Shown here in pieces: positions 57,780 to 61,093 of a DNA stretch of 64,000 nucleotides (positions within the stretch are counted from its first letter, which is position 1; each line of letters begins with the position of its first letter). The DNA comes from Microbacterium sp. zg-B96. Lineage in GTDB: Bacteria > Actinomycetota > Actinomycetes > Actinomycetales > Microbacteriaceae. The notes under the pieces are model-generated. The model was not told where the DNA came from, searched no databases, and saw nothing but the letters and a program-made list of their open reading frames with translations. Location of the stretch: positions 930,001 through 994,000 of the forward strand of contig NZ_CP126738.1 of the NCBI RefSeq assembly GCF_030246865.1, written 5' to 3'. A program made the translations under genes and the position numbers.

Positions 57780-59741
57780 TCAGGACAGCGCGTGGGCGAC
57801 CAGTCGCTCCAGGGTGCGCATGCCGTCGCGCGACAGGATCGACTCCAGGTGACCCTGCACCGAGGCGAACCCGGGGCCGCGGAGGGCGTACACATCGCCC
57901 GATTCCGGATCCGCGGCGACCTGCGCCTCGCCCACGCGGTCGGTGCCCGGTGCGACGCGTGCGGTGAAGGTGTTGTAGAAGCCGATCGAGGCGCGCTCGC
58001 CGAAGACGTCCACCGTCCGCTGCAGCCCCTGATGCGGGGACGCCAGTGGCGCCAGGTCGATGCCGAGCGCATCGGCGAGGATCTGGTGGCTGAGACACAC
58101 CGCCAGCAGGGGTCGTCCGTCGGCCAGCCGGTGCTGCACGACGTCACGCATTCGCCGCAGGCGGGCACTGTCGGGGTCGCGGGGGTCGCCCGGTCCGGGG
58201 CCCGCCACGACCAGGTCGACGCCGTCCAGCTGCGCGTCCGACACCTCGGACCACGGCGCGATGGTGACGTCCAGGCCGAGGTGGCGCAGCTGGTGCGCGA
58301 GCATCGTGGTGAAGCGGTCCTCCGCGTCGACCACGAGCGCCGAGCGCCCGGCGAACGGGCCGGCGACGGCTTCGGTCGGCTGCGGGTTCAGCCAGAACTC
58401 CGCCAGTCGCCCGTTGCGCGAGGCCAGCAGCGCGGCGATCTGCGGATCGTCGGCGAGACTGCGAGACACCGATGCCGGGGCGTCGGTGTCCTGCTCCCCG
58501 CCGACGGCCACGCCCACGTGCGCGTCCGCGGCGTCCGCCGCTTCCGCGGCGAGGTCACGGGGGATCGCCCCGATCGCGCCGAGCACGCCCGCAGCCTTGC
58601 CGTGGGTCTCGCCCACCTCGCCGGCGGGGTCGGAGTGGCGCACGAGGGTCGCGCCCACCGGGACGCGCAGCCGGCCGTCCACGAGATACGCGGTGCGGAT
58701 GAGGATCGGTGCGTCCAGGTCGTGGGTCGTGCCGGCACCGGCATCCGCGTCCTTCGCGGCATCCGTGTCGCCGTTCGGGGTGAACAGCGCCGCCACGCCG
58801 GAGTAGTAGCCGCGGGGGGTCGTCTCGTGCCGGGCGATGACGGTGCACGCGTTCTGCATGGGGGAGCCGGTGACGGTGGGGGCGAACATCGTCTCGCGCA
58901 GGATGTCGCGCGGATCCAGCCGACTGCGACCGCGCAGCACGTACTCGGTGTGGGTCAGCCGCGACATCTCCTTCAGATGCGGGCCGGTGATGCGCCCGCC
59001 GTCGGAGCAGACGGCGCTCATCATCTTGAGCTCCTCGTCGACGACCATGAACAGTTCCTCGGTCTCCTTCGTCGACTCGAGGAACGCGCTGAGGGTCTCG
59101 GCGGTGGCACCGCCCGCGGGGTGGCGGAAGGTGCCGGAGATCGGGTTCATCGTGACGACCCCGCCCTGCGCGCTGACGTGGGCCTCGGGGCTCGCGCCGA
59201 CGGCGATGTGACCGGGGGTGACGATCGCGAACGTCCAGTAGGCGCCCCGTTCGTGCTCCAACAGGGCGCGAAACCAGGTCAGCGCCGCGACGCGGGGATC
59301 CGCGTCGACACCGGCGGTGAAGTCCCGCCGGATCACGAAGTTGGCGCCCTCGCCGCGGCCGATCTCCTCGGCGATGACGCGGCGCACGATGGCGGCGTAG
59401 TCGTCGTCGGCGATGTCGAACCCGGCATCCGTCAGTGCGATCGGGTCGACGGGCAGCTCGGCGAGGACCTGTGCACGCGGCAGGGCGGTGTGGGAATCCA
59501 CCACCAGGCAGCGCAGCGGCGCGCCGTCGTCGTGGCAGGCGAAACCGCGTTCCCGCACCTGGCGGTACGGCACCAGCGCGAGCACTTCGCGCGGTGTGCC
59601 GTCCGCGTCGGTCAGCGGGATGTCGGCGAGCAGGTCGACGTCGACGACGTCGCCGGTGAGCAGCTCGACGGTGTCGGCATCGCGCGCGATGAGGGCGAAC
59701 GCCGGCAGGTCGGCCAGCGTGGCGGGAAGTGACGCGGTCAT
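57780..59741 (-). CDS. Anthranilate synthase, fused TrpE-TrpG (TrpE(G)/PhzE-like)
   Basis: A fusion of a chorismate-using domain (about 60-440; FVIRRDFTAG, NPISGTFRHPAGG, FMVVDEELKMMSAVCSDGG, GSPMQNACTVI) with a glutamine amidotransferase (about 465-653; triad Cys in AVCLSHQ, His and Glu in VQGHLESI). A spacer of acidic Ala-rich residues joins them. It makes anthranilate (or, if PhzE-like, aminodeoxyisochorismate) from chorismate and glutamine. The presence of a tryptophan attenuator upstream favours anthranilate for tryptophan. No phenazine or other trp gene is adjacent. ATG at 59741 with GAAAG upstream. It separates the site-2 protease from ispG, on the opposite strand. Confidence 0.9.
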   Translation of the reverse strand: MTASLPATLADLPAFALIARDADTVELLTGDVVDVDLLADIPLTDADGTPREVLALVPYRQVRERGFACHDDGAPLRCLVVDSHTALPRAQVLAELPVDPIALTDAGFDIADDDYAAIVRRVIAEEIGRGEGANFVIRRDFTAGVDADPRVAALTWFRALLEHERGAYWTFAIVTPGHIAVGASPEAHVSAQGGVVTMNPISGTFRHPAGGATAETLSAFLESTKETEELFMVVDEELKMMSAVCSDGGRITGPHLKEMSRLTHTEYVLRGRSRLDPRDILRETMFAPTVTGSPMQNACTVIARHETTPRGYYSGVAALFTPNGDTDAAKDADAGAGTTHDLDAPILIRTAYLVDGRLRVPVGATLVRHSDPAGEVGETHGKAAGVLGAIGAIPRDLAAEAADAADAHVGVAVGGEQDTDAPASVSRSLADDPQIAALLASRNGRLAEFWLNPQPTEAVAGPFAGRSALVVDAEDRFTTMLAHQLRHLGLDVTIAPWSEVSDAQLDGVDLVVAGPGPGDPRDPDSARLRRMRDVVQHRLADGRPLLAVCLSHQILADALGIDLAPLASPHQGLQRTVDVFGERASIGFYNTFTARVAPGTDRVGEAQVAADPESGDVYALRGPGFASVQGHLESILSRDGMRTLERLVAHALS

Positions 59742-59776: not shown

Positions 59777-59802
59777 AAAAAAGACCGCCCCGGGGGCGGT
59801 CT
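59777..59802 (-). terminator. Tryptophan attenuator terminator
   Basis: On the minus strand a GC-rich stem (AGACCGCC... with ...GGCGGTCT, up to 10 bp) is followed directly by six T residues, the only clear classical intrinsic terminator in the window. It lies between the leader peptide and the TrpE-TrpG gene. Its 5' arm can instead pair with GGCGGT just after the leader stop codon, giving an antiterminator. Confidence 0.85.
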
Positions 59803-59817
59803 GTCGTCACACGAACA

Positions 59818-59833
59818 CACCGCCTATGCGGTG
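59818..59833 (-). promoter_or_regulatory. Leader (1:2) hairpin of the tryptophan attenuator
   Basis: CACCGC and GCGGTG (six pairs, four-base loop) overlap the leader peptide's last codons and stop. A ribosome stalled at the Trp codons would block this stem and free GGCGGT to pair with ACCGCC of the terminator, preventing termination. Confidence 0.65.
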
Positions 59834-59859
59834 AGCCACCAGGTGAGGTTCGCGGACAT
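59824..59859 (-). CDS. trpL: Tryptophan leader peptide, MSANLTWWLTA
   Basis: An 11-residue peptide with two adjacent Trp codons (residues 7 and 8) ends with TAG 21 bases before the terminator stem. It has no ribosome-binding site; the hexamer TAGTTT lies six bases before its ATG (minus strand 59871-59866), so it is probably translated from a leaderless message. With the hairpins downstream it forms a complete ribosome-mediated attenuator for the fused anthranilate synthase. Comparable leaders are known for trp genes of Corynebacterium and Streptomyces and for trpE(G) of rhizobia. Confidence 0.85.
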   Translation of the reverse strand: MSANLTWWLTA

Positions 59860-59865
59860 GGGCCG

Positions 59866-59871
59866 AAACTA
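59866..59871 (-). promoter_or_regulatory. Putative -10 element (TAGTTT) for trpL-TrpE(G)
   Basis: TAGTTT on the minus strand ends six bases before the trpL ATG. It is divergent from the ispG hexamer at 59930, with 58 bases between. No clear -35 is visible. Confidence 0.4.
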
Positions 59872-59941: not shown

Positions 59942-61093
59942 GTGCCAGCAGTCAATATCGGGATGCCGCGTGTGCCGGAGGTTCTCGCCCCTCGTCGCAA
60001 GACCCGTCAGATCAAGGTCGGCAAGGTCCTCGTCGGTGGTGGCGCTCCTGTCAGCGTCCAGTCGATGACGACCACCAAGACCACCGACATCAATGCCACC
60101 CTTCAGCAGATCGCCGAGCTGACGGCATCCGGTTGCGAGATCGTGCGCGTGGCGGTGCCGTCGCAGGACGACGCCGATGTGCTGCACATCATCGCCAAGA
60201 AGAGCCAGATCCCCGTCATCGCCGACATCCACTTCCAGCCGAAGTACGTCTTCCAGGCCATCGACGCCGGCTGCGCTGCGGTGCGTGTCAACCCGGGCAA
60301 CATCCGCCAGTTCGACGACAAGGTCGGCGAGATCGCGAAGGCGGCCAAGGATGCCGGGGTGTCGCTGCGCATCGGCGTGAACGCGGGGTCGCTGGATCGC
60401 AGGCTCCTGGAGAAGTACGGCAAGGCGACCCCGGAGGCACTCATGGAGAGCGCCGTCTGGGAGGCCTCGCTGTTCGAGGAGCACGATTTCCACGACTTCA
60501 AGATCTCGGTCAAGCACAACGACCCGATCGTGATGGTCAAGGCGTACCGGCTGTTGTCCGAGCGGGGCGATTGGCCGCTGCACCTCGGGGTCACCGAGGC
60601 AGGGCCCTCGTTCCAGGGGACCATCAAGAGCGCCACCGCGTTCGGCATCCTGCTGTCTGAGGGCATCGGCGACACCATCCGCGTCTCGCTGTCGGCGCCG
60701 CCGGCCGAAGAGGTCAAGGTCGGCCACCAGATCCTGCAGTCGCTGAACCTGCGGGAACGCAAGCTCGAGATCGTCTCCTGCCCGTCGTGCGGGCGCGCGC
60801 AGGTCGACGTCTACACCCTCGCCGACGACGTGACCGAGGGGCTCAAGGACATGACCGTGCCGCTGCGGGTGGCCGTGATGGGCTGTGTCGTCAACGGCCC
60901 GGGCGAGGCCCGCGAGGCCGACCTCGGCGTGGCATCCGGAAACGGCAAGGGGCAGATCTTCGTCAAGGGCGAGGTCGTCAAGACCGTGCCCGAGGCCGAC
61001 ATCGTCAAGACGCTGATCGAAGAGGCCAACCGCATCGCCGCCGAGATGGGCCCCAGCGCACCGCTGGGCACCGCGCAGGTCATCACCGCCTGA
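59942..61093 (+). CDS. ispG: 4-hydroxy-3-methylbut-2-en-1-yl diphosphate synthase
   Basis: [4Fe-4S] enzyme (GcpE) of the MEP pathway that reductively opens the cyclic diphosphate MEcPP to HMBPP. The N-terminal TIM-barrel part begins [15 protein letters not shown]; the C-terminal domain has the cluster cysteines in [11 protein letters not shown] and [11 protein letters not shown], with the ligating Glu. 383 residues is the short bacterial form. GTG start, probably leaderless. It shares the pathway with dxr, 13 kb upstream. Confidence 0.96.

Follow-up and report, generated by a model that had tools for sequence, protein, structure and literature searches.

The window, a 64,000-nucleotide stretch of the genome of Microbacterium sp. 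zg-B96, carries on its minus strand a gene for a fused TrpE-TrpG (PhzE-like) anthranilate synthase (57780..59741, 653 amino acids, ATG at 59741), assigned from its domains, a structure search and a tree of relatives. Upstream of this gene and on the same strand lies a compact leader. Starting from the promoter side, the -10 box TAGTTT (59866..59871) is followed, after six bases, by the ATG (59859) of a short leader open reading frame (ORF; 59824..59859), 11 codons and a TAG stop (59826-59824), which reads ATG TCC GCG AAC CTC ACC TGG TGG CTC ACC GCA TAG, encodes the peptide MSANLTWWLTA and is probably leaderless. The two adjacent Trp codons, TGG TGG (59836..59841), recognised by direct reading and from relatives, are the putative sensor. 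A perfect 6-bp hairpin, CACCGC/GCGGTG (hairpin 1:2, 59818..59833, fold -9.2 kcal/mol), spans the stop codon as CACCGC-ATAG-GCGGTG, and region 2, GGCGGT (59819..59824), has its GCGG beginning 12 nt past the last Trp codon. Region 3, ACCGCC (59795..59800), is computed to partner either region 2, giving an antiterminator, or region 4, giving a terminator. The terminator hairpin 3:4 (59782..59802), located by scan and fold, has 9 bp, a 3-nt loop and ACCGCC in its 5′ arm, and six T in a row (59777..59782) follow, seen both by direct reading and in the scan. Direct reading finds each of these elements, from TAGTTT to the six T, in the order that the original prediction gave, which is correct to the base. 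Divergent from the leader, the ispG ORF occupies 59942-61093 on the plus strand; 71 bases separate its listed start from the -10 box, leaving what would be a short spacer common to both promoters.

Within its own genome the element is singular: the pattern TGGTGG, nine bases, TAGGCGG has one exact match, the leader locus itself, and with one mismatch it occurs at 7 places, fewer than the 29 of a backwards-read control. Rfam at gathering scores gives no match in the window. The terminator scan finds one terminator in the window versus a shuffle mean of 0.3; the fold of this hairpin is -16.8 kcal/mol and that of the complete 84-nt leader -41.6 (z -4.4), values that 0 of 200 shuffles equal in either case.

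The free leader RNA folds into a long hairpin of the 1:2 type together with the terminator. The two alternative forms that the original prediction envisaged are obtained by computation under assumed ribosome footprints: with nt 1-34 hidden, as by a ribosome whose A site is occupied by the second Trp codon, and the RNA made to the middle of region 3, the antiterminator CGGU:ACCG forms (-10.4), and with nt 1-46 hidden, as by a ribosome at the stop codon, the terminator alone forms (-17.1). When all the RNA is made and region 2 is free, the terminator is still preferred (-19.7), so antitermination must win by timing, region 2 pairing first. The 1:2, 2:3 and 3:4 pairings are, by computation, mutually exclusive.

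With a leader ORF bearing tandem Trp codons, exclusive computed pairings, a terminator with a T tract and comparative support (below), the full attenuation layout of the original prediction is borne out, and we read the element with high confidence as a classical ribosome-mediated transcription attenuator of a fused trpEG that encodes a Trp-pathway enzyme. Transcription would begin with the A of the leader ATG or an adjacent base, and a ribosome would load on the bare 5′ AUG. When tRNA-Trp is short, the ribosome would wait at TGG TGG, its footprint on the message reaching roughly as far as the last of the leader codons; region 2, left free, would pair with region 3 as it emerges, the pairing being the one computed above, and RNA polymerase would read into trpEG. 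When Trp is plentiful, the ribosome would run on to the stop codon, where region 2 begins, and cover region 2, allowing the 3:4 terminator to form. If no ribosome has loaded, hairpin 1:2 would form and termination would be expected as well.

In the single-contig genome of the strain (3.41 Mb), the trp genes are dispersed: the genes for indole-3-glycerol phosphate synthase (IGPS, trpC) and trpD score over their cut-offs, and TrpB and TrpA, read from translations, adjoin trpC. Such dispersal would suit a terminated leader RNA, or a leader peptide, with a second role in trans at the distant trpD and trpCBA in the manner of rnTrpL, and S. meliloti, with three trp operons, provides a precedent in the action of rnTrpL on trpDC mRNA (PMC7298713, in excerpt). 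However, against the start regions of trpC, trpB and trpA, and of the gene for a membrane protein that precedes trpC, the leader pairs no better than controls do (ranks 46-76 of 100 controls), and we consider an additional role in trans improbable. In the 14-kb stretch around trpCBA there is no leader with adjacent Trp codons (hereafter WW leader) before trpC; such short WW ORFs as occur there sit within another gene, a long way upstream. A TGGTGG upstream of trpD was rejected as a leader of the trpEG kind, lying outside any leader ORF of that kind. At trpD, TAGGAT stands eight bases before the ATG (L187:1454-1470), and by its sequence this gene may itself be leaderless.

The attenuator in cis can be followed through relatives of the fused gene. 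The leader survey comprises 170 loci: 80 named loci, which are the best of 567 confirmed candidates, 30 further loci that came as such from the class matches listed, and 60 fetched regions, a chosen subset of those matches. Leaving out L025 and L062, which have too little upstream DNA, and L177, whose coordinates were wrong, gives 167 testable upstream regions. A comparison of these upstream regions, in line with a check put forward with the original prediction, shows adjacent Trp codons in a leader in 147/167, a count not of independent species because the named and further loci partly overlap (two pairs are identical), and the three-part motif GGCGG/CCGCC/GGCGG in 126/147. By group, the WW leader occurs in 55/55 loci counted as named Microbacterium (including a few bins labelled only Microbacteriaceae, Actinomycetes or Actinomycetota), in all 13 further genomes of the genus (the strain's own included), in 12/12 other Microbacteriaceae and in 67 of 87 others. 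All 80 loci counted as Microbacteriaceae, a few bins among them being less precisely labelled, have the compact form (start, WW, 2-4 codons, stop), which is found in 105/167 upstream regions versus 8/2414 control windows of 500 nt from the same loci. Leader-bearing loci extend to Agromyces, Plantibacter, Jiangella, Blastococcus, Kutzneria, Embleya, Yinghuangia and Kitasatospora, and to a large family, f24, with leaders such as MFAHSTQNWWWTAHPAAH; because that peptide is one residue from the S. lividans trpL1 peptide as given in an excerpt of PMC8079986, this family is labelled Streptomycetaceae-type in the counts below. Upstream of ordinary trpE, a short WW ORF within 700 bases was found in 0 of 20 chosen genomes from families f24 and f25. 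On this comparison, the attenuator is real, old and widely conserved.

The same set of leaders bears on where transcription begins. Each leader start was taken as the nearest in-frame ATG (else GTG) before WW, picked blind to the promoter. Measured from this start, the TANNNT box has a spacer of 6 bases in 61, of 7 in 65 and of 8 in 2 of the 147 leaders (128/147), whereas no other spacer between 0 and 44 has it in more than 3; among those listed of the remaining 19, the box precedes a start further up, which is no independent test, the start having been chosen by the box. A Shine-Dalgarno (SD)-like motif precedes the leader start in 4/147. This spacing and the rarity of SD-like motifs fit a transcription start at the first base of the leader ORF, and the window leader is likely leaderless. 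It is also conceivable that the attenuator works with a start some bases upstream and a ribosome that binds a short 5′ untranslated region: the start is predicted from sequence, and in the window only the -10 box is visible, with no -35 box and no promoter in a sigma-70 scan, which needs a -35 box too. Against such an upstream start stand the sharp preference for spacers of 6-8 bases, the near lack of SD-like motifs and the S. lividans TK24 trpL1, reported as leaderless from RNA-seq (PMC8079986, in excerpt); we regard it as quite improbable. The leaderless start of the original prediction is thus retained as probable, but its description as a notable variant was overstated: a leaderless Trp leader as such is not new, having been published for S. 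lividans trpL1 and for S. meliloti, whose rnTrpL begins with the ATG of trpL (PMC7298713, in excerpt).

The identity of the controlled enzyme is less obvious from the protein itself. It combines a chorismate-binding domain (PF00425) with a glutamine amidotransferase domain (PF00117), and its nearest named proteins are from Microbacterium. Its best solved relative, at E 1e-153, is 3r74, entitled anthranilate/para-aminobenzoate synthases component I, which we take to be a PhzE; with such a closest structure, it was right to raise the phenazine alternative. The protein reaches 142.6 bits with TIGR01815 (fused TrpE-clade3) against a cut-off of 739.15, it is far under the cut-off of every TrpE model among the families listed (25 of 42), and the names among the 120 relatives listed include phenazine biosynthesis protein PhzE, borne by several, phenazine-specific anthranilate synthase and anthranilate synthase family protein. 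All this would be expected if a genuine attenuator controlled a PhzE-type ADIC synthase feeding a phenazine-like pathway. However, the genome of the strain holds three chorismate-binding genes and, beside the fused gene, no other TrpE candidate: one is PabB-like (best models PabB, 327.6 bits, just under the pabB cut-off of 328.4), and the other is an isochorismate synthase gene, over its subfamily cut-off and adjoining genes that read from their translations as menD and menA. Of 99 Microbacterium genomes, 98 carry the fused gene, one gives a TIGR00564 match at E 1e-100 or better and none a match over the cut-off of that model; since this cut-off is strict (5/14 control genomes pass, though 14/14 match), the E-value figure is relied on as well. 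G469 has both a TIGR00564 match (8.8e-147, 488.8 bits, under the cut-off of 517.7) and the fused gene, and G481, 90% complete, has neither the fused gene nor a match at E 1e-100 or better. In a search confined to the phenazine family PHZA_PHZB (PF03284), the strain and 14 named control genomes have no match, whereas two phenazine records, which served as positive control, do.

The tree of fused enzymes separates the leader-bearing genes from PhzE. The tree set has 172 rows, with L066, L078 and L177 left out and five PhzEs added, these being chosen among 25 listed of 220 plasmid records with a match; 119 rows were used, with Microbacterium thinned to 15. The quick maximum-likelihood tree gathers all 94 leader rows into a single group of 105 (SH-aLRT 98) and places all five PhzEs, which come from annotated phenazine or phenazine-like clusters, outside it; we read the tree as a split only, because the method gives no bootstrap, the PhzEs as outgroup do not form one clade and several of the outside rows sit on long branches. 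None of the five PhzEs has a leader of this kind: in 520 bases upstream, four lack TGGTGG, and the one copy of L189, at -130, belongs to the gene upstream. Furthermore, the S. venezuelae relative, TrpEG, is reportedly an anthranilate synthase and not an ADIC synthase, going by the title of Ashenafi et al. 2008 as cited in PMC3111181. Genome content and tree together uphold the tryptophan role that the original prediction preferred to a phenazine-like one, and we hold a phenazine-type enzyme at this locus to be very unlikely. From genome content we infer that the fused enzyme makes anthranilate for tryptophan, probably as the only anthranilate synthase of the strain. The PhzE names in public databases are probably a mis-annotation across the genus. 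The leader supplies independent evidence that a set of genes in actinobacteria, for which PhzE and phenazine-specific anthranilate synthase are common names, encodes the tryptophan enzyme, in Microbacterium apparently the only one.

The loci without a WW leader number 20 of 167, ten of them inside the trpEG group of the tree together with one artefact row. These 11 rows are nine of family f30, L133, whose leader holds only one of the Trp codons, and the artefact L183, whose reading frame was off by one base; outside the group of 105 there are nine more rows that lack a WW leader. Among the nine f30 rows in the tree, eight (L159, L162, L164-L167, L170 and L171) have TANNNT 6-8 bases before an in-frame start codon of the fused gene, a pattern that, from sequence, would fit loss of the attenuator and a fused gene that has itself turned leaderless. 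L157, L158, L160, L161, L163 and L168 keep the WW leader, with GGTGG or GGAGG replacing GGCGG in the hairpin and weak 2:3 pairing. In three Agromyces-like genomes of the same family (G081, G101 and G266), an ordinary TrpE (E 1e-156 to 1e-160) coexists with a leader-bearing fused TrpEG. Set beside Microbacterium, which nearly always has only the fused gene, they point to gene displacement at different stages.

Within the leaders, the geometry of the switch is widely shared. Counted from the last Trp codon, the first GCGG starts 12 nt on in 117/147 leaders and 13 nt on in 11/147, whereas 0.75% of shuffles have it at 12 nt; in four more loci it falls at 9 nt inside GCGGCGG, hence with a second one at 12 nt. 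It makes no difference to this distance whether the stop codon comes after 3 codons (67/68 Microbacterium and 12/12 other Microbacteriaceae) or after 7 to 13 (40 other loci). Hairpin 1:2 has a stem of at least 5 perfect pairs in 110/147 leaders versus 11.7% of shuffles. The position that follows GGCGG in regions 2 and 4, taken with the region-3 base that pairs with it, reads T-A-T in 55 of the 61 Microbacterium loci with the motif and C-G-C in all 27 Streptomycetaceae-type loci with it, so that this one position changes together in the three regions. The 2:3 pair beside the core is lost in 14/14 Jiangella-group loci, 11/11 other Microbacteriaceae and 6/61 Microbacterium, in all 31 of the 126 motif loci, plus one odd row. 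A simpler search finds a region-2 match of at least 5 nt in 134/144 loci. Shuffles reach or exceed the real match length in 14% of cases on average, so any one locus says little by itself, and the strong evidence is the geometry common to the set. Although GC-rich sequence yields many hairpins and, at a single locus, chance matches of that length, the probability that the leader ORF and hairpins are a chance arrangement is negligible, because conservation across the class, measured against controls, covers the WW leader, the TANNNT spacing, the 12-nt distance and hairpin 1:2.

The T tract is more variable. At least 5 T in the 10 nt after the core are present in 60/61 Microbacterium loci, 2/11 other Microbacteriaceae, 2/14 of the Jiangella group, 6/27 Streptomycetaceae-type loci and 0/13 other loci. 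In the T-poor lineages, termination may need more than the hairpin.

A more speculative proposal, which we put forward as a possibility short of an expectation, is that leaderless initiation is a working part of the switch, with a single ribosome that loads on the bare 5′ AUG and reads the Trp codons throughout the clade, the fixed 12 nt corresponding to the front edge of that ribosome, and the element acting as a one-shot sensor and the main transcriptional control of the only anthranilate synthase in Microbacterium. The leaders form a compact, conserved natural set for testing leaderless initiation in attenuation and the use of the ribosome footprint as a ruler.

Among the matches listed in the literature on the Trp leader, trpE or PhzE of Microbacterium, no title concerns the leader. 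A trp attenuator of S. venezuelae was reportedly described by Lin et al. in 1998, and Korolev et al. in 2015 are said, by a title cited in PMC4833913, to treat Trp attenuators in Actinobacteria and may cover more genera, Microbacterium possibly included. Similar to PhzE, the phenazine ADIC synthase and its closest solved structure, the window enzyme is a fusion of chorismate-binding and glutamine amidotransferase (GATase) domains, but its gene has a Trp leader, falls on the other side of the tree split and has no phenazine genes noted beside it. It also differs from the rhizobial TrpE(G), which we take to be TrpE-clade3 (TIGR01815), the model whose cut-off the window protein falls far below. 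The S. meliloti trpL-trpE(G) system (rnTrpL, peTrpL) combines a leaderless Trp leader, a fused gene and attenuation (PMC7298713, in excerpt), as the window probably does. The actinobacterial trp attenuators predicted by Seliverstov et al. 2005 likewise have a triple of complementary segments, a GC-rich terminator and double or triple Trp codons; the trp section of that paper, as excerpted, names Corynebacterium and Streptomyces, whereas the window is from Microbacterium (PMC1262725).

The closest counterpart is Streptomyces trpL1-trpE/trpEG, which, going by an excerpt of the S. lividans report, shares with the window tandem Trp codons, a short leader, leaderless in S. lividans, and a terminator before the anthranilate synthase gene (PMC8079986). 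The leader peptide of L144 is one residue from that of S. lividans trpL1 and the L144 gene lies in the same tree group as that of the window, from which we infer that the S. lividans gene is itself fused. The clade controlled is the same, the fused trpEG of the single group of 105 in the quick tree. The details differ: the window peptide has 11 amino acids and two Trp codons versus 18 and three in S. lividans (same excerpt), its stop codon lies at region 2, whereas the Streptomyces-type ORF runs through region 2, and T tracts are richer in Microbacterium. The Microbacterium element is thus a member of the Streptomyces trpL-trpEG kind and its mechanism is not new; what is new here is its genus-wide reach, the fixed distance from the Trp codons to region 2 and the case against the PhzE annotations.
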